DNA from: an uncultured Clostridia bacterium
GTDB lineage: Bacteria > Bacillota > Clostridia > Christensenellales > Borkfalkiaceae
Direction of reading: 5' to 3'
Length of the DNA: 64,000 nucleotides
Assembly (NCBI GenBank): GCA_944359365.1
Contig: CALVST010000001.1
Location: forward strand, 113,356-177,355
Below, in pieces: positions 1-8,474 of the stretch (positions within the stretch are counted from its first letter, which is position 1; each line of letters begins with the position of its first letter). The translations under genes were made by a program, and so were the position numbers. The notes beneath the pieces are model-generated. The model was not told where the DNA came from and searched no databases. It worked only from the letters and a program-made list of their open reading frames with translations.

Positions 1-2
1 GT

Positions 3-626
3 ACCTGCGCGGTGATGCTCGAATTGGTGCAGGGAGAAGGCGGCGTGAACGCACTCCCCGTTGACGACGTGAAAAAGATCGAAAAGTTCTGTAAAGAAAG
101 GGATATCCTTCTCATCATAGACGAAGTGCAGACGGGCAACGGCAGAACGGGCAGTCTGTACGCCTATATGCAGTACGGAATATCCCCCGACATCGTCACG
201 ACGGCGAAAGGGCTTGCGGGCGGGCTGCCGCTCGGGGCTACGATGTTCTTTGAAAAGACGCAGAACACGCTCACGGCAGGCGACCACGGCTCCACGTTCG
301 GCGGGAATCCCGTATCCTGCGCGGGGGCGATCAGCGTGCTTTCCCGCATAGACGACAAACTTCTTTTGGAAGTGCAGGGCAAAAGCGCCTATATGCGCAC
401 CTATCTCGGGCGCATGCCGAACGTTGCCGGCGTGAGCGGCTTAGGGCTGATGATCGGGCTAGAATTGAAAAATAAAAACGCGCGCGAAGTTGCCGAACGG
501 TGCTTGGAACGCGGGCTTATCGTTTTGACGGCGAAGAGCAGGCTGCGCCTGCTGCCGCCCCTTACCGTCAGTAAGGCAGAAATGGATGCGGGGCTTAAAA
601 TTTTGAACGAGGTGTTGTCCGAATGA
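3..626 (+). CDS. argD: Acetylornithine aminotransferase, C-terminal part (5' end outside window)
   Basis: PLP-dependent class III aminotransferase that makes N-acetylornithine in arginine synthesis. The frame is open from base 3, so the start lies upstream. Visible family signatures are QGEGGVN near the beginning, the cofactor-contacting DEVQTGNGRTG and the Schiff-base lysine in TTAKGLAGGLPLG, followed by the usual small C-terminal domain. The stop overlaps the argF start (ATGA), which indicates translational coupling in an arginine operon whose earlier genes lie to the left. Other class III aminotransferases (for example GABA or succinylornithine enzymes) share these motifs, but adjacency to argF and carAB makes ArgD by far the best call. 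Confidence 0.93.
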   Translation, partial: TCAVMLELVQGEGGVNALPVDDVKKIEKFCKERDILLIIDEVQTGNGRTGSLYAYMQYGISPDIVTTAKGLAGGLPLGATMFFEKTQNTLTAGDHGSTFGGNPVSCAGAISVLSRIDDKLLLEVQGKSAYMRTYLGRMPNVAGVSGLGLMIGLELKNKNAREVAERCLERGLIVLTAKSRLRLLPPLTVSKAEMDAGLKILNEVLSE

Positions 627-1525
627 AACATTTATTAAAACTCGGCGATCTTACGCCGGAAGAGATCTTATCCATACTCAACCTTGCCGACCAGCTCAAA
701 TATGAGCGGAAGAACGGCATCGAGCATCCGTATCTGAAAGGCAAAAAGCTCGGCATGATCTTTGCGAAGTCTTCCACGCGCACGCGCGTCAGCTTCGAAG
801 TCGGCATGATCGAGCTGGGCGGCAGCGCGCTTTTCCTGTCAGAGCGGGATATTCAGCTCGGCAGGGGCGAACCCATCAAAGATACGGTGCGCGTGCTTTC
901 TCGCTATCTCGACGGCATCATGATCCGTACTTTCAAACAGTCTGACGTGGAGGAACTCGCCGAATACGGTTCCATTCCCATCATCAACGGGCTGACCGAC
1001 TACTGCCATCCCTGCCAGGTGCTTGCAGATCTCATGACGATCCGCGAATATAAGGGGAGTTTCAAGGGGCTGAAATTGTGCTTTATCGGCGACGGGAACA
1101 ATATGGCGAACTCTCTCATCGTCGGCGGCATCAAGACGGGAATGGAAGTCGCGATCGCCTGCCCGGACGGATACCGCCCCGATAAAGAGGTGTGCGCATG
1201 GGCGGAAAAGAACGGCAAACTCACCGTTACGGACGACATTGCCGCCGCGGCGAAGGACGCCGACGCGGTTTATACCGACGTGTGGGCGTCTATGGGGCAG
1301 GAAGCGGAAAAAGCGGAGCGGGAAAAGGTCTTCAAAAATTACTGCGTAAGCAAAGAAGTCATGGCGCTCGCCAAGCCCGACGCGCTCGTTTTGCACTGCC
1401 TGCCCGCGCACCGCGGAGAGGAGATTGAGGACGAGGTGTTCGAGGCGCACGCGCAGGAAATTTTCGACGAAGCGGAAAACAGGCTGCACGCACAGAAAGC
1501 GGTGCTCGTGAAGCTGCTCAAATAA
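623..1525 (+). CDS. argF: Ornithine carbamoyltransferase
   Basis: Cytosolic enzyme that joins carbamoyl phosphate to ornithine to give citrulline. The 300-residue length is normal for the family. The carbamoyl-phosphate site STRTR is at residues 51-55, HPCQVLADL lies in the middle, and the HCLP ornithine-site motif is at about 258-261. The ATG overlaps the argD stop. It sits directly before carA and carB, whose product is its co-substrate, so the operon makes carbamoyl phosphate and consumes it in one transcript. The HCLP motif separates it from aspartate carbamoyltransferase. Confidence 0.97.
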   Translation: MKHLLKLGDLTPEEILSILNLADQLKYERKNGIEHPYLKGKKLGMIFAKSSTRTRVSFEVGMIELGGSALFLSERDIQLGRGEPIKDTVRVLSRYLDGIMIRTFKQSDVEELAEYGSIPIINGLTDYCHPCQVLADLMTIREYKGSFKGLKLCFIGDGNNMANSLIVGGIKTGMEVAIACPDGYRPDKEVCAWAEKNGKLTVTDDIAAAAKDADAVYTDVWASMGQEAEKAEREKVFKNYCVSKEVMALAKPDALVLHCLPAHRGEEIEDEVFEAHAQEIFDEAENRLHAQKAVLVKLLK

Positions 1526-1546: not shown

Positions 1547-2626
1547 ATGAAGGAAGAAAAGGTATACCTGACCTTGCAGAACGGGCAGGTCTTTGAAGGC
1601 AAAAGATTCGGCGCCAAGGGCGACGTGCTCGGCGAACTCGTATTCACTACGGGCATGACGGGCTATATTGAAACGCTTACCGATCCCAGCTATTACGGGC
1701 AGATCGTCATTCAGACGTTCCCGCTCATCGGCAATTACGGCATGATCCTCTCCGACAGGGAGAGCAAAAAGCCGTATCTTTCCGCATATATCGTGCGCGA
1801 ATACTGTAAAGAGCCGTCCAACTTCCGCTGCGAAGACACATTGGAAGAGTATCTGATAAAGAACAATATTCCGGGCGTGTACGGTATAGACACGCGCGAA
1901 CTTACAAAGACCGTGCGCGAAGCGGGCGTGATGAATGCGGTCATTTCTACCCGCCCCGTTGCGGACGTTGCGGCGATCGGCAAATATGTCATACGCGACG
2001 CGGTGAAAAACTGTACCTGTTCCAAGCGCATCGACTATAAGGCGGAAAGGGCAAAGCGCAAGGTCGTACTGTGGGATTTCGGCGCGAAGGAAAACATTGC
2101 GCGCGAACTTGTCAAGCGCGGTTGCAACGTCGTGCGCGTACCTTCATGGTATACGGCGGAGGAGATCCTCGCGCTGAACCCCGACGGGCTCATGCTGACC
2201 AACGGTCCCGGCGATCCCGCGGAAAATACCGAAATCATTAAAAATATAGCCAAACTTGCGGGCAAACTGCCTATATTCGGCATCTGCCTCGGGCATCAGC
2301 TTTTCGCGCTCGCCATGGGCGGAAAGACCAAAAAGATGAAATACGGGCACCGCGGCGCGAATCAGCCCGTCAAAGAGCTGGCAACGGGCACGGTGTATAT
2401 ATCCAGCCAGAACCACGGCTATGAAGTGCTCGCCGATTCCATAAAGAATGTCGGCACGCTGAGTTTCGTCAACGCGAACGACAATACCTGTGAAGGCGTG
2501 GAGTATCCCGAATTGAACGCGTTCACCGTGCAGTTCCACCCCGAAGCGTGCGCGGGGCCGCTCGACGCGCGCGATCTGTTCGACAGATTCATGAAGATGA
2601 TGGACGGAGGAAAGAAGAATGCCTAA
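1547..2626 (+). CDS. carA: Carbamoyl-phosphate synthase small (glutaminase) subunit
   Basis: Class I glutamine amidotransferase subunit that hydrolyses glutamine and passes ammonia to CarB. I start it at ATG 1547, 6 nt after a purine-rich GGACGGG; an in-frame TTG six bases upstream is possible. The N-terminal CPSase small-chain domain (EGKRFGAKG, FTTGMTGY) is followed by the amidotransferase domain with nucleophile Cys247 in FGICLGHQ and the His331/Glu333 pair in FHPEA, so the triad is complete. It overlaps carB by 8 nt. It probably supplies both arginine and pyrimidine synthesis unless a second carAB exists elsewhere in the genome. Confidence 0.97.
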   Translation: MKEEKVYLTLQNGQVFEGKRFGAKGDVLGELVFTTGMTGYIETLTDPSYYGQIVIQTFPLIGNYGMILSDRESKKPYLSAYIVREYCKEPSNFRCEDTLEEYLIKNNIPGVYGIDTRELTKTVREAGVMNAVISTRPVADVAAIGKYVIRDAVKNCTCSKRIDYKAERAKRKVVLWDFGAKENIARELVKRGCNVVRVPSWYTAEEILALNPDGLMLTNGPGDPAENTEIIKNIAKLAGKLPIFGICLGHQLFALAMGGKTKKMKYGHRGANQPVKELATGTVYISSQNHGYEVLADSIKNVGTLSFVNANDNTCEGVEYPELNAFTVQFHPEACAGPLDARDLFDRFMKMMDGGKKNA

Positions 2627-5600
2627 AAGAAGCGATATCAAAAAAGTACTCGTCATCGGCTCGGGCCCGATCGTCATCGGTCAGGCGGCGGAATTCGACT
2701 ATGCTGGCGCGCAGGCGTGCCGCGTGCTCAAAGATGCGGGCGTGAACGTTGTCCTTTGCAACTCTAACCCCGCGACCATCATGACGGACAAAGCGCTTGC
2801 GGACGAAATATATCTCGAACCGCTCACGCTGGAATCCATCAAGCGCATCATCAAAAAGGAAAGACCTGACAGCCTGCTCGCCTCTCTCGGCGGTCAGACG
2901 GGGCTGACCATAGGATGCAAGCTCGCGAAAGAGGGATTCCTCGATAAATGGGGCGTAAAACTCATCGGTACGAACGTAGACGCGATCGACCGTGCCGAGG
3001 ACAGGGAACTGTTCAAAGAGACCATGCAGAAGATCGGTCAGCCCGTCGTGCCTTCCGACATCGCCTATACGGTGGAGGAGTGCGTCGCGGTGGCGAATAA
3101 GATCGGCTATCCCGTCATCATCCGCCCGGCATTCACGCTCGGCGGCGCGGGCGGCGGCGTGGCATACAACGAAGCGGAGCTGCGCACCATATCTCACAAC
3201 GGGCTGATGCTTTCGCCCATCACGCAGGTACTCGTCGAAAAGTATATTTACGGATGGAAAGAGATAGAATTCGAAGTTTTGCGCGACAGCCACGGCAACG
3301 TGATCACCGTCTGCTCGATGGAAAACTTCGATCCCGTCGGCATCCATACGGGCGACTCCATCGTCGTCGCTCCCGCACTGACGCTTGCGGACAAAGAATA
3401 TCAGATGCTCCGCAGCGCATCCCTGAAGATCATCACCGAACTCGGGATAGAGGGCGGCTGCAACTGCCAGTTCGCGCTCAATCCCGATTCCTTCGAATAT
3501 TCCGTCATAGAAGTCAATCCGAGAGTCTCGCGCTCTTCCGCGCTCGCCTCGAAAGCGACCGGCTATCCCATCGCGAAAGTTGCGACCAAGATCGCGCTCG
3601 GCTACACCCTCGACGAAATTAAAAATGACGTCACGGGCAAAACTTTTGCCTGCTTCGAGCCGACGCTCGACTATGTGGTCGTAAAACTTCCGAAATGGCC
3701 GTTCGACAAGTTCCTGTACGCAAAGCGCGAGCTCGGCACGCGCATGAAGGCGACGGGTGAGGTCATGTCTATCGGCACCTCGTTTGAAATGGCGATCATG
3801 AAGGCGGTGCGCGGCGCGGAGATTTCCCTTTCTTCCCTCAATTTGGACAAGTATGAAGGCAAAGATCTTCGGGAAGAATTGAAAAAACTCTCCGACGAGC
3901 GCCTGTTCACGGTTTTTGCCGCCCTGAAAGCGGGTATCTCCGCAGACGAAATATTCGGGATCACCAAGATCGACCGTTGGTTCATCCACAAACTCAACAA
4001 CCTCGTCCAATTCGAAAAGCGCCTTGCTAGCGAAAAGCTCACCCGCGCACTGTACGACGAGGGCAAAAGATACGGCTATCCCGATAAAGAACTTGAAAGG
4101 CTTTCGGGGCAGAAGATCCCGTACCACCGCAAGGCGGTCTATAAGATGGTGGATACCTGCGCCGCAGAGTTTTCCGCCGAAACGCCGTACTTTTATTCCA
4201 CTTACGACGATTACGCGCACGACGAGGCGGCGCCTTTCATCAAGGAGAGCACGAAAAAGCGCATCATCGTCATCGGTTCCGGCCCTATCCGCATCGGGCA
4301 GGGCATAGAGTTCGACTATTCTTCCGTGCACTGCGTGTGGACGCTCAAAGAGCTCGGCTATGAAGTGGTCATCATCAACAACAACCCCGAAACGGTTTCC
4401 ACCGACTTCGACACGGCGGACAGATTGTACTTCGAGCCGCTCACGCCCGAAGACGTGCAGAACGTCATCGACAAAGAAAAGCCTTACGGCGTGGTCATCA
4501 CCTTCGGCGGGCAGACGGCGATAAAACTTTGCAACTATCTCGACAAGCACGGCGTGCGCATTCTCGGCACGTCTGCCGACAGCGTAGACATGGCGGAAGA
4601 CAGGGAACGCTTTGACGAGCTGCTCGAAAGGTTCGGCATCAGCCGCCCGAAGGGGCTCACCGTCATGACGAAAGAAGAGGCGCTTGCGGCGGCGGAAAAG
4701 CTCGGCTATCCCGTCCTGCTGCGCCCGTCCTACGTCATCGGCGGGCAAAACATGACGATCGCGTTTACGGAAGGCGACATCTCCCGTTACATGGACGTCA
4801 TTTTGGCGCAGCATATCGAAAACCCCGTGCTCTGCGACAAGTACCTTATGGGGCAGGAGCTCGAAGTGGACGTCATCAGCGACGGCACGGACGTCCTGAT
4901 CCCCGGCATCATGCAGCACATCGAGCGCGCGGGCGTGCACAGCGGCGACTCCATCGCAGTGTATCCGCCTTATAACCTGAGCGACATCATGCTGGATAAG
5001 ATCATCGAATGTTCCACGCAGCTCGCGCTCTCTCTGAAAACGAAGGGGCTCATCAACATACAGTTCCTCGTGTTCCACAACGAGCTGTATGTGATCGAAG
5101 TGAATCCGCGCGCGTCGCGCACGATACCGTATATCAGCAAGGTGACGGGCGTGCCGATGGTCGAGCTCGCCACGAAGATCATCGTCGGCGCGAAGCTGAA
5201 AAAGCTCGGCTACGGCACGGGGCTGTACAAGAGCTCGCCGTATGTGGCGGTCAAAGTGCCGGTGTTCTCCTTCGAAAAGCTCAACGACGTCAATTCGCAG
5301 CTCGGGCCGGAAATGAAGTCGACGGGCGAAGTGCTCGGCATCGGCAAAACGATAGAGGAAGCGCTCTTCAAGGGGCTCGTTTCCGCAGGTTTCAAACTTT
5401 GCCATCCTACCAAGCAAAAGCAGGCGGGCGTGTACTTTACCGTCAACGATCAGGACAAGTTCGAAATTCTGGGGCTTGCCAAAAAGTTCAGCGATCTCGG
5501 TCTGAACATCTACGCGACGAAGGGCACGGCGGATACCATCCGCACCCTCGGCATCGATGTTACCACGGTGGACAGGCTTTCCGAAAGCGACGAGATATTC

Positions 5601-6665
5601 CGCCTGATGGACGAGGAAAAGATCGATTATATCGTCTACACCGGCAAGACGGATATGGAGTCTATCAACGACTATATCCGCATGTATCACCATGCGATCC
5701 TTCTCGGCATTACGACGCTGACCTCGCTCGATACGGCGAACGCCTTGGCAGACAGCATCGCGAGCCGCTTCAACGAAGACAACACGGAGCTTGTAGACAT
5801 CAATCATCTGCGCCGCGAAAAGACGAAACTTTCGTTTTTGAAAATGCAGAGCTGCGGCAACGATTATATCTTTTTCGATAACATGGACGGCAGGATCACC
5901 TGCCCCGAATCGCTCGCCATCAACTTTGTGGACAGGCATTACGGCATCGGCGGCGACGGGATAACGCTCATCGAAAAATCTGACGTTGCCGACGCAAAGA
6001 TGCGCATATTCAATAAAGACGGCAGCGAAGGCGCAATGGCGGGCAACTCGATACGCTGCGTCGCAAAATATTTGTACGACAACGGTTTCGTAAAAGACAA
6101 GACCGTTCGCATAGAAACGCTGAGCGGCGTGAAAGAGATGGCTCTTTTCACCTTCAACGGCAAAGTCAGTTCGGTCAGCGTGGATATGGGCAAGGCCGTT
6201 TTGAACGGAAAGGAAATCCCGTCCACTTTGGATGGGGATACCGTCGTCGGCAGAGAGATCGAGGTCGGCGGACAAAAATACAGCGTTACGCTCGTCAACG
6301 TCGGCAATCCGCACTGCGTCGTGTTCTGCGACAAAGTGGACGCGGTGGATCTCTCCAATGTCGGACCGATGTTCGAAAACGCGCCGTACTTCCCCGAACG
6401 CATCAATGCCGAGTTCGTGCGCGTCGTCAACGACAGAACGCTGAAAATGCGCGTCTGGGAGCGCGGCAACGGCGAAACGCTCGCATGCGGAACGGGCGCG
6501 GCGGCGTCGGTCGTGGCGGCGGTTTTGAACGGCTATTGCAGAAGGGACGAAGACGTGACCGTCAAACTGCGCGGCGGCGATCTGATCGCGCGCTACAATT
6601 CGGACGGCACGGTCACGCTTACGGGCAACGCCAAGCTCGTTTTTGAAGGAACGATCGAATATTGA
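2619..6665 (+). CDS. carB: Fused carbamoyl-phosphate synthase large subunit and diaminopimelate epimerase-like protein (CarB-DapF)
   Basis: One uninterrupted 1348-residue frame. Residues 1 to about 1068 form a complete CarB: two ATP-grasp halves, each opening with an IGSGP..IGQ..EFDY motif (near 13 and 548), and a C-terminal MGS-like allosteric domain. From about 1071 (LSFLKMQSCGNDY) to 1348 runs a full-length DapF fold of about 278 residues, with RHYGIGGDG, GNPHCVVF and the second catalytic Cys1290 in ACGTGA. There is no linker and no ribosome-binding site before the DapF part, so it looks like a true fusion. The first catalytic Cys of DapF (normally CGN.xRC) is Ala1141 in MAGNSIRC. Carbamoyl-phosphate synthesis is secure; whether the epimerase half is active is open. 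Confidence 0.93.
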   Translation: MPKRSDIKKVLVIGSGPIVIGQAAEFDYAGAQACRVLKDAGVNVVLCNSNPATIMTDKALADEIYLEPLTLESIKRIIKKERPDSLLASLGGQTGLTIGCKLAKEGFLDKWGVKLIGTNVDAIDRAEDRELFKETMQKIGQPVVPSDIAYTVEECVAVANKIGYPVIIRPAFTLGGAGGGVAYNEAELRTISHNGLMLSPITQVLVEKYIYGWKEIEFEVLRDSHGNVITVCSMENFDPVGIHTGDSIVVAPALTLADKEYQMLRSASLKIITELGIEGGCNCQFALNPDSFEYSVIEVNPRVSRSSALASKATGYPIAKVATKIALGYTLDEIKNDVTGKTFACFEPTLDYVVVKLPKWPFDKFLYAKRELGTRMKATGEVMSIGTSFEMAIMKAVRGAEISLSSLNLDKYEGKDLREELKKLSDERLFTVFAALKAGISADEIFGITKIDRWFIHKLNNLVQFEKRLASEKLTRALYDEGKRYGYPDKELERLSGQKIPYHRKAVYKMVDTCAAEFSAETPYFYSTYDDYAHDEAAPFIKESTKKRIIVIGSGPIRIGQGIEFDYSSVHCVWTLKELGYEVVIINNNPETVSTDFDTADRLYFEPLTPEDVQNVIDKEKPYGVVITFGGQTAIKLCNYLDKHGVRILGTSADSVDMAEDRERFDELLERFGISRPKGLTVMTKEEALAAAEKLGYPVLLRPSYVIGGQNMTIAFTEGDISRYMDVILAQHIENPVLCDKYLMGQELEVDVISDGTDVLIPGIMQHIERAGVHSGDSIAVYPPYNLSDIMLDKIIECSTQLALSLKTKGLINIQFLVFHNELYVIEVNPRASRTIPYISKVTGVPMVELATKIIVGAKLKKLGYGTGLYKSSPYVAVKVPVFSFEKLNDVNSQLGPEMKSTGEVLGIGKTIEEALFKGLVSAGFKLCHPTKQKQAGVYFTVNDQDKFEILGLAKKFSDLGLNIYATKGTADTIRTLGIDVTTVDRLSESDEIFRLMDEEKIDYIVYTGKTDMESINDYIRMYHHAILLGITTLTSLDTANALADSIASRFNEDNTELVDINHLRREKTKLSFLKMQSCGNDYIFFDNMDGRITCPESLAINFVDRHYGIGGDGITLIEKSDVADAKMRIFNKDGSEGAMAGNSIRCVAKYLYDNGFVKDKTVRIETLSGVKEMALFTFNGKVSSVSVDMGKAVLNGKEIPSTLDGDTVVGREIEVGGQKYSVTLVNVGNPHCVVFCDKVDAVDLSNVGPMFENAPYFPERINAEFVRVVNDRTLKMRVWERGNGETLACGTGAAASVVAAVLNGYCRRDEDVTVKLRGGDLIARYNSDGTVTLTGNAKLVFEGTIEY

Positions 6666-6677
6666 GCGGGAACAGTT

Positions 6678-7298
6678 ATGCAGGAAATATTTTATGAAGA
6701 GAGCGTAGATACGCACAATCAGGCATCGGCAAAGCGGAGATTCATGGTTTACAGGATATTTTCCATCGTATCCTTTGTTTCTGCGGTTTTTGCCTTCCTT
6801 ACGCTTCTTTACGGCGTGCCTATCAATACGGATGAGGGTTTTACCGCGCCCGTGATCATATCCCTTGTCGTGTGGCTGGTTTTGATGGCCGCTATGATCG
6901 CGCTCGGCATATTTTTCGCACGCAAGAAACACACTTTCTACCTCAGCTACGATTATACTTTCGTATCGGGCGATCTGCGGATTTCCAAAGTTTCCAACAA
7001 CCGCCGCAGGAAGCATTTGTACAACGTTCCTACCGACAGGATCATCCGCATCGGAAGAGTCGGCTCGGAATCTTACGAAAAGCTGAAAAAATCGCCCGAC
7101 GTAAAAGAGGATGTCTGTACGCCGAATACGGAGGCGGACGACGACAAGGAGTTTTTCTATATCCATGCGCAGACGAACGTGGGAAAGAAGATACTCGTTC
7201 TCGAATGCAGGATACAGCTCATTTATACGGTCATCCGCTTTATCAACAGACCGGGCATACTCGAACCTGAGTTCAACAAACAGACGGTATCCAAATGA
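6678..7298 (+). CDS. Uncharacterised protein with two predicted membrane segments
   Basis: A 206-residue protein 12 nt after carB, probably in the same transcript. Residues 1-22 are polar, followed by two hydrophobic stretches (roughly 25-45 and 55-80), then a basic, beta-rich soluble part with RISKVSNNRRRKHLYNVPTDRI and FFYIHAQTNVGKKILVLECR, which resembles a small membrane-attached PH-like or YcxB-like cytoplasmic domain. I do not recognise a family with certainty, although similar two-helix proteins of unknown function are common in Clostridia. Nothing in the neighbourhood links it to arginine or lysine metabolism beyond co-orientation. Confidence 0.75.
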   Translation: MQEIFYEESVDTHNQASAKRRFMVYRIFSIVSFVSAVFAFLTLLYGVPINTDEGFTAPVIISLVVWLVLMAAMIALGIFFARKKHTFYLSYDYTFVSGDLRISKVSNNRRRKHLYNVPTDRIIRIGRVGSESYEKLKKSPDVKEDVCTPNTEADDDKEFFYIHAQTNVGKKILVLECRIQLIYTVIRFINRPGILEPEFNKQTVSK

Positions 7299-7336
7299 CC
7301 GCGCCGTTCGGCGCGGCTGCCGCGTTCGTTTTTTTT
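7299..7336 (+). terminator. Likely intrinsic terminator after the arginine/carbamoyl-phosphate operon
   Basis: A GC-rich 7-bp stem (CCGCGCC, 7299-7305, with GGCGCGG, 7310-7316) overlaps an alternative hairpin (CGCGG/CCGCG, 7312-7324), which is followed by an eight-T run at 7329-7336. The alternative hairpin is closer to the T run and is the more credible terminator. It would separate the upstream operon from the desulfurase-thiI pair. Confidence 0.55.
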
Positions 7337-7352
7337 GCGGCGCTTTTGATAT

Positions 7353-8474
7353 ATGATCTATCTTGACAATGCGGCGACAACGCGCCCCGACCAAGACGCA
7401 GTGCGCGGGGCGCTCAGCCTTTTAAATGAAGAATTTTACAACCCGTCGGCTCTCTATAAAGAGGGCTTTTCGGCGCATAAGCGGCTTGAAGAGGCAAGGA
7501 AAAGTATATTGTCGCACGTTGCCGATGTGCAAAAGTATTCGCTTGTTTTCACATCCTGCGGGAGCGAGGCGGACAATCAGGCGATCTTTTCCTTTGCGCG
7601 CCGCGGCAATTTCGTTACCACCGAAGGGGAGCACGCGGCGGTGTATCAGGCGGCGCAGGAGCTTTCCCGCCGCGGGGTGGAAGTGCGCTTTGCCAGACTC
7701 GACCGTTTCGGCAGGGCAGACGAGGCGGATCTTTTGCGCCTCGTGGACGAAAACACGTCGCTCGTATCCGCGATCCATGTGAACAACGAAACGGGAGCAA
7801 TAAACGACATCGCGTCCCTTGCAAAAAAGGTCAAGGCGAAGAACCCGCGCACGGTCTTTCACAGCGACGGCGTACAGGCGTTCGGAAAACTGCCCTTCCG
7901 CATGACGGACGGCATCGACTTGTATTCCGTCAGCGCGCACAAAATAGGCGGCGTGCGCGGCGCGGGCGCGCTTATTTATGCAAAAAACAGGAAATTGTCC
8001 CCGGTCATATTCGGCGGAGGACAGGAAGGCGGGTACAGGAGCGGCACGGAAAACACGTTTGCCGCCGTTCAGTTCAGCCTTGCCGCCGAAAAAAAATTCA
8101 AAAATATCGAGCCCGATATGCAAAAGGCGCGCAGGTGCAACGCGCTGTTTCGGGAAACGCTGCATAAAAATATCTTTTCGGTCTTATCTGCGGAAGACGC
8201 GTCGCCGTATATCCTTTGCATTTCGGCGAAGGGACTGCGCGGCGAAGTATTGCTGCATATGATAAACGATCGCGGCGTAATTGTAGGCACCGGGTCCGCC
8301 TGTTCTTCGAGAAACAGGTTCAGCCGCGTTATTCTGGCTTGCGGCGCCGACGAAAGGACTGCCGACGGCATACTTCGCATTTCTTTTTCCGCGGAAACGA
8401 CGGAAGGGGAGTGCGCGGAAGCGGCGCGCATCATAAACGAATGCGCCGATACACTTGCGGAGAAAACAAAATGA
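7353..8474 (+). CDS. Cysteine desulfurase (NifS/IscS family)
   Basis: PLP enzyme that takes sulfur from cysteine as an enzyme-bound persulfide. The N-terminus YLDNAATTRPD is diagnostic. The Schiff-base lysine is Lys197 in SAHKIGG, and the persulfide cysteine is Cys317 in GTGSACSSR. Its 373 residues fit a type I desulfurase with a short C-terminus. The stop overlaps the thiI start, reproducing the dedicated desulfurase-thiI pairs of Bacillus (NifZ-ThiI), so its main client is probably tRNA 4-thiouridine synthesis rather than general Fe-S assembly; no iscU or sufU is nearby. Confidence 0.94.
   Translation: MIYLDNAATTRPDQDAVRGALSLLNEEFYNPSALYKEGFSAHKRLEEARKSILSHVADVQKYSLVFTSCGSEADNQAIFSFARRGNFVTTEGEHAAVYQAAQELSRRGVEVRFARLDRFGRADEADLLRLVDENTSLVSAIHVNNETGAINDIASLAKKVKAKNPRTVFHSDGVQAFGKLPFRMTDGIDLYSVSAHKIGGVRGAGALIYAKNRKLSPVIFGGGQEGGYRSGTENTFAAVQFSLAAEKKFKNIEPDMQKARRCNALFRETLHKNIFSVLSAEDASPYILCISAKGLRGEVLLHMINDRGVIVGTGSACSSRNRFSRVILACGADERTADGILRISFSAETTEGECAEAARIINECADTLAEKTK

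Follow-up and report, generated by a model that had tools for sequence, protein, structure and literature searches.

Two protein families that are separately well described, the glutamine-hydrolysing carbamoyl-phosphate synthase (CPSase) large subunit CarB (TIGR01369, NF003671) and the diaminopimelate (DAP) epimerase DapF (TIGR00652), were found joined in the product of one gene, here called carB~dapF. The gene lies in a 64,000-nucleotide stretch of DNA from an uncultured Clostridia bacterium (G000:C1:113356-177355), hereafter the window. Its product resembles known CarB proteins in the full domain order, in the presence of carA just upstream and in the retention of Thr1042, but differs from them in an extra C-terminal DapF domain and in an altered nucleotide-effector site, with Lys993 replaced by Arg and Arg1030 lost. 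The DapF domain is typical in that it scores above cut-off as a whole, matches DapF folds in the Protein Data Bank (PDB) and keeps the ligand-contacting residues; unlike known DapF proteins, it is fused to CarB, has Ala in place of the first catalytic cysteine and occurs beside an intact stand-alone DapF encoded elsewhere in the genome.

In Escherichia coli, a DapF fold is known to act on a second enzyme with its cysteines dispensable: DapF with both cysteines replaced by Ala does not epimerise and still binds and stimulates RppH (PMC4227774, PDB 6d13). However, the E. coli DapF is active, stand-alone and acts in trans, whereas that of the window is fused and retired, with an effect on CarB that we infer. 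Enzymes of the lysine/DAP pathway are also known to fuse, as in dihydrodipicolinate reductase with DAP aminotransferase in oomycetes and aspartate kinase with DAP decarboxylase in bacteria (PMC2705460), but these fusions join steps of one pathway, and no CarB-DapF protein is among those described in the available portion of that paper. A DapF-type protein with a second role is curated as the bifunctional DapF/glutamate racemase (NF038284); that model, however, has 254 positions, the size of DapF only, and contains nothing of CarB, and the window protein scores 113.7 against it, below the cut-off of 350. As judged by titles and the starts of abstracts, no paper describing a CarB-DapF fusion was found in the open-access PMC literature, consistent with the remark in an earlier first-pass annotation of the window that the fusion is not known as an established one.

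The carB~dapF gene (2619..6665, + strand) is an uninterrupted open frame of 1348 residues from ATG to stop. The CarB part (residues 1-1050; 2619..5768, +) matches the curated CarB models over their full length, with 1457 bits for NF003671 (cut-off 599; residues 1-1050) and 1420 bits for TIGR01369 (cut-off 1027), and includes the MGS-like allosteric domain (residues 949-1033; 5463..5717, +). The DapF domain (residues 1071-1348; 5829..6662, +) gave 269.3 bits with TIGR00652 (cut-off 114.65; residues 1072-1346), and the Pfam domain calls agree with the NCBIfam assignment of both parts. The first-pass annotation had described a full CarB and a full-length DapF fused in a single frame without a stop, and this was borne out. 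It had also claimed that there is no linker, which is incorrect, as about 20 residues (1051-1070; 5769..5828, +), the counterpart of the CarB C-terminal tail in the alignment, separate the CarB model from DapF. Its view of the DapF domain as complete holds for the length and fails for the active site.

The catalytic cysteines of DapF are Cys73 and Cys217 (PMC3581254, PMC4227774). In the alignment, the place of Cys73 is occupied by Ala1141 (codon GCG; 6039..6041, +), the stand-alone copy having Cys there, and the motif CGNG.RC of the aligned PDB DapF sequences reads AGNSIRC in the window; the second catalytic cysteine is retained as Cys1290 (codon TGC; 6486..6488, +). The window domain therefore lacks the complete cysteine pair of a DapF, which is present in 50/50 aligned stand-alone rows and, by the definition of "intact" used here, in 53/53 intact fused rows. 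Of the residues that contact DAP (roles from PMC8225329), the window retains Asn11, Asn64, Gly74, Asn75, Asn157, Asn190, Glu208, Arg209, Gly218 and Thr/Ser219. The position of Gln44 is Gly in the window and in all fused and stand-alone copies compared. Neither Ala nor Gly is capable of an acid/base function, and, because the first catalytic cysteine is lost, the fused domain of the window is predicted to be inactive as an epimerase.

The genome of the window (1.94 Mb, 76 contigs, estimated 89.74% complete) encodes further enzymes acting on DAP. The second dapF that the first-pass annotation proposed to look for was found as a stand-alone gene (G000:C15:327-1142), followed by pyrG and dapL; its product is 55% identical to the fused domain and has both cysteines. 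A DAP dehydrogenase is also encoded. A search of the genome for a second carB, proposed likewise, found none at its estimated completeness, and the idea that a duplicate CarB frees the fused one from its role was rejected. Given that the fusion protein is the sole CarB found, and that argF and an aspartate carbamoyltransferase (above cut-off) are present, it is predicted to make carbamoyl phosphate.

The fusion is widespread. Fused-type DapF was found in 32 of the 37 genomes of the window's genus (its own included; one partial), the five genomes without it being 66-81% complete, and in each of the 30 genus loci read the first site is Ala and the second Cys. The fusion is also present in further families of both the order and the class, and 44 of 47 genome-contig loci carry it, including that of the named strain Ruminococcus bromii YE282, in which the fused DapF has both cysteines. 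An assembly or frame error was ruled out by the same fused frame in many independent assemblies, and the sequences show a genuine fusion that is old and conserved. In two metagenome-assembled genomes (MAGs) of the genus, a second fused-type DapF was seen (G020:C10:44658-45491 and G018:C92:2458-3291), one with an internal TAA; these may reflect an assembly of mixed strains or a duplicated gene.

In a FastTree phylogeny of the C-terminal 500 residues of CarB, 111/111 fused rows (101 genomes and 10 of the genome-contig loci, with most genus copies omitted as near-duplicates) form one clade with a support of 100, and all 27 unfused rows, from 32 unfused loci fetched, fall outside it. Because the fused CarBs form one clade with no unfused CarB inside, carB and dapF likely fused once in Clostridia. 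Multiple independent fusions are unsupported by this tree, and repeated detachment of the domain is likewise not seen, there being no unfused CarB on it inside the fused clade. Unfused CarBs from fusion-bearing families, such as that of G323 from the window's family, group with other unfused CarBs. A CarB search of 80 genomes of the order without a fused DapF among the matches listed gave 53 with a match at 1e-100, and the longest CarB open frame listed for same-order genomes without a listed fusion is no more than 1272 aa. Among six members of the window's family (f1) without a listed fusion, G323 has an unfused CarB of the other, unfused lineage, and the remaining five (G078, G138, G168, G229 and G251; 97-99% complete) gave no CarB match at 1e-100; these may rely on an external supply of arginine and pyrimidines or on a different route.

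The fusion presumably arose from adjacent carB and dapF genes. The gene order in R. bromii is carA, carB~dapF, pyrG, dapL, and dapL is also found downstream of the fusion at L080 (with pyrG between) and L074. The pyrG-dapL pair of R. bromii recurs behind the stand-alone dapF in the genome of the window. Unfused carB-dapF neighbours that could represent intermediates were not seen at any of the 32 unfused CarB loci, for most of which the sequence examined extends some 1 to 1.5 kb past carB.

To relate the state of the fused domain to the other enzymes of each genome, all DapF copies were collected from 80 fusion genomes and their active-site residues were scored. Both this set and a second one were drawn from the fused matches listed, and lower-scoring fusions are unrepresented. 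In 36/80 genomes the fused DapF is intact and there is no stand-alone copy, in another 36/80 a cysteine is lost and a full stand-alone copy is present, and an intact fused copy together with a stand-alone copy was seen in 0/80; hence, every genome with a full stand-alone DapF in this set (36/36) has a cysteine-less fused copy. The remaining 8/80 have lost a cysteine and have no full stand-alone copy, and of these five (G303, G260, G482, G238 and G072) encode a DAP dehydrogenase, the counts for this enzyme covering the first 80 genomes only, and G230 carries a fragment of a stand-alone copy where a contig ends. In seven further members of the genus, the fused copy has Ala and the stand-alone copy is intact. 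The census thus supports a rule: the fused copies of genomes that have a second source of meso-DAP are usually missing a catalytic cysteine, which in nearly all cases is the first. The first cysteine is missing from 55 of the 57 cysteine-less rows, eight of which (8/55) are also without the second, and the residues at the first site in 79 of the first 80 genomes are Cys (37), Ala (25), Ser (10) and Gly (7). One duplicate sequence (G355) was dropped from the alignment and counted as intact from its letters, and G210, which is short, was omitted from the fused-only tree and from the ligand-site row counts and counted as lost.

The second set comprised 20 genomes, 11 of them remaining from the 91 initially chosen for the census, namely G055, G308, G438, G310, G126, G298, G256, G327, G213, G280 and G321, and nine being less than 90% complete (G089, G276, G062, G118, G042, G113, G119, G153 and G137); it was not wholly unseen, as the sequences of G113, G119, G153 and G137 had been read earlier. 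An intact fused copy without a stand-alone copy was found in 11 and a lost cysteine with a stand-alone copy in six, the stand-alone copies of G310 and G113 being counted as present with their cysteines unread. Hence, 17/20 genomes fit the rule, with two clear exceptions and one unclear case, G042 (51% complete), in which the cysteine is lost and only DapF fragments were found.

On a tree of the fused sequences only (110 rows), the state changes seven times, which supports about seven losses of the cysteine, one of them in an ancestor shared by a large clade to which the window's family belongs. Both states occur within the genus g67, where G116 has an intact fused copy alone and G311, G204, G330 and G321 have Ser together with a stand-alone copy. 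A test of independent pairs gave five pairs on well supported branches, in which stand-alone presence changed in the same direction in 2.3 on average, in the opposite direction in 0 and not at all in 2.7; here the contig-end fragment of G230 was taken as a stand-alone copy, whereas the census counts score this genome as having none. In a DapF tree of 95 chosen rows, which has some long branches and some poorly supported nodes, the stand-alone DapFs are scattered, and several separate acquisitions are therefore probable. One stand-alone DapF, G069_S, lies inside the fused clade of this tree with moderate support, and it is possible that the domain was copied out of the fusion there.

The retired domain is conserved in the window's genus. 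Among 36 pairs from nine genus genomes, the median number of non-synonymous differences per site is 0.093 for the fused DapF, 0.197 for the active stand-alone DapF and 0.042 for the adjoining CarB. The median ratios of non-synonymous to synonymous change (dN/dS) over usable pairs are 0.095 (251 pairs), 0.185 (29) and 0.046 (287), respectively; synonymous distances are about 1, and these ratios are rough, the rank order being the point. The fused domain measures 279 codons as extracted in 30/30 genus copies. By these measures the retired domain is under strong purifying selection in the genus and, with a catalytic residue lost and the fold so constrained, it has the features of a pseudoenzyme. 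In the genus rows (n = 3), 27/27 ligand-site cells are kept, as are 123/126 cells at other invariant sites. The pocket differs in the genus g26, in which all eight loci (L098, L113, L148, L149, L155, L168, L176 and L178) have Gly74 replaced by Ala and Asn190 by Tyr or Phe, and 5/8 have Arg209 replaced by Lys, which suggests a different ligand or none. At two further loci (L071 and L072, from MAGs named Lapin), both cysteines are lost, Asn157 is replaced by Ser and a few mid-DapF residues are missing; the fusion is kept.

The regulatory sites of CarB itself were examined with numbering from an alignment to E. coli CarB. Residues involved in control by uridine monophosphate include Thr977 and Lys993 (PMC6245113). 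Thr977 is kept in the window. Position 993 is Arg in 20/20 rows of the window's family, and is Lys in 53/53 intact fused and 23/27 unfused rows; Arg1030 is replaced by His or Tyr in 20/20 family rows, and is Arg in 53/53 intact fused and 27/27 unfused rows. Thr1042, of the ornithine site, is Thr in 20/20 family rows, the window included. The nucleotide-effector site of the window's family is therefore described as altered rather than lost, given that the replacement of Lys by Arg is mild. At the other independent cysteine losses Lys993 is kept in 15/17 and Arg1030 in 17/17 rows; thus, the changed site is a feature of the large clade of the window and no general partner of cysteine loss. An AlphaFold2 model of residues 561-1348, built from a 24-row alignment, had a mean pLDDT (per-residue confidence) of 77.4 and a pTM (global fold confidence) of 0.65, with an unreliable relative placement of the domains. 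Foldseek matched it to CPSase and DapF structures, among them 2q9h (DapF C73S mutant) and 6d13 (the RppH-DapF complex). The model confirms both folds and is silent on contacts between the domains.

We lean, without great confidence, towards the reading that the protein, the only CarB known in its cell, bears at its C-terminus a DapF domain that has ceased to be an epimerase and is kept for its effect on CarB. A single carB-dapF fusion in Clostridia, which is well supported, would have given a bifunctional enzyme that appears still to be the only DapF in many lineages. Where another source of meso-DAP became available, a stand-alone DapF or in some genomes a DAP dehydrogenase, the fused copy would usually have lost a catalytic cysteine, as the census supports, and in the window's genus the retired domain would have stayed under the strong purifying selection shown there, its DAP-contacting residues unchanged. 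Because it remains constrained with these contacts unchanged, the domain would have a non-catalytic job on CarB, most likely as a ligand-responsive allosteric or assembly module beside the CarB regulatory domain, probably binding LL- or meso-DAP, and carbamoyl-phosphate synthesis would then answer to the cell-wall/lysine pathway. The regulatory or ligand-sensing role that the first-pass annotation had raised fits the pattern of a lost residue, a pocket kept in the genus and strong constraint; the function itself is what we infer, and a structural role is its main rival. A more specific version is put forward only tentatively, namely that in the window's lineage the retired DapF is a DAP sensor, through which binding of LL- or meso-DAP controls the single CPSase, partly replaces the altered nucleotide control and couples the supply of arginine and pyrimidines with the cell-wall/lysine pathway, with about seven such retirements in Clostridia. 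If the domain does regulate CarB, this would be a new effector pathway for one of the best-studied allosteric enzymes. The sampled fusions also look like a natural replicated experiment in the conversion of an enzyme to a non-catalytic domain: after one fusion the cysteine was lost about seven times, both states are found among close relatives, and the domain itself was never lost in the sample. When DapF matches are found within CarB of gut Clostridia, the cysteine should be checked before DapF activity is assumed.

Several observations weigh against the favoured reading. Two census genomes, G313 and G221, have lost the cysteine, and neither a full stand-alone copy nor a DAP dehydrogenase was found in them; the same loss without a full stand-alone copy was seen in G118 of the second set (70% complete), where DAP dehydrogenase was not searched. 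Conversely, G089 of the second set (n = 1; L249, L265), the sole genome of the 100 tallied with both cysteines in both DapF copies, combines an intact fused copy with a stand-alone one, possibly after a recent gain of the latter. A DAP dehydrogenase is also present in 16/36 intact genomes (15 tabulated and G355); therefore, a substitute does not force the loss of the cysteine. With five pairs, the independent-pair test is too small for significance, and a Fisher p for the census counts takes no account of relatedness and is given no weight. CarB without DapF occurs in many relatives. Loss of one cysteine may leave partial reactions, and versions with Ser may not be fully inactive and might retain some activity, because another cofactor-independent racemase with Thr for one cysteine still works in one direction (PMC8142540). 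The slow evolution of the domain could reflect high expression of carB instead of a function of the domain. Across the 57 cysteine-less rows, ligand sites are kept in 468/513 cells, hardly better than the 2158/2394 at other invariant sites, and in g26 they fare worse (46/72 against 267/336). Since the preference for the pocket is so weak across these rows, a purely structural job fits them equally.

Such a job, in which the retired DapF would aid folding, dimerisation or solubility of CarB and sense no ligand, is rather unlikely but deserves to be taken seriously, as the constraint lies on the whole fold and not specially on the pocket, g26 retains the fusion despite its changed pocket residues and E. 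coli DapF is dimeric in solution (PMC4227774). Folding alone, however, need not require that every scored ligand site be kept, as is the case in the window's genus and after several independent losses (f6_g67, f70 and the f23/f33/f4 group). Changed pockets, in that some further residues are lost in g26, g48 and g40, together with the repeated loss of a catalytic residue, might also be expected of a passenger that is no longer needed and decays neutrally. That explanation is improbable, given that 30/30 genus copies are full length and diverge less than the active paralogue, that dN/dS is well below 1 in the genus and that any stop codon could remove a C-terminal domain, yet 0/27 unfused CarBs lie inside the fused clade. 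Little more weight is given to an enzyme of changed chemistry, using the lone cysteine or acting on another substrate, for example as a racemase of a diamino acid of the arginine pathway. Cys1290 and the remaining pocket are kept, and relatives of DapF with other substrates exist, among them the 2,4-diaminobutyrate racemase PddB (PMC8225329) and an O-ureidoserine racemase in the PDB; but in the window Asn64, Asn157, Asn190 and Arg209, which are assigned to the distal carboxylate of DAP (PMC8225329), are all conserved, and the pocket therefore retains the shape suited to DAP. Furthermore, Ala offers no acid/base, other lineages have Gly or Ser, and the second cysteine may go as well, as in the 8/55 rows above. 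The fixed stoichiometry of two activities proposed in the first-pass annotation could apply to relatives in which the intact fused DapF is the only one (36/80 genomes). For the window a functional bifunctional enzyme is very improbable, as its first catalytic cysteine is absent and the genome has, at other loci, both an intact stand-alone DapF and a DAP dehydrogenase.

The genes upstream of carB~dapF lie on the same strand in the order argD, argF, carA. The carA gene for the CPSase small subunit (1547..2626, +) overlaps the fusion gene by 8 bases and is preceded by argF for ornithine carbamoyltransferase (623..1525, +) and by the 3' part of argD, of the acetylornithine transaminase family (1..626, +), which is truncated at the window start. 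This neighbourhood suggested an arginine-only CPSase, which would explain the nucleotide site; the proposal is unsupported, as aspartate carbamoyltransferase is also present. An open frame of 1601 codons (2589-7394, - strand) runs antisense to the entire carB~dapF gene, and appears to result from coding-strand codon usage and not to be a gene.

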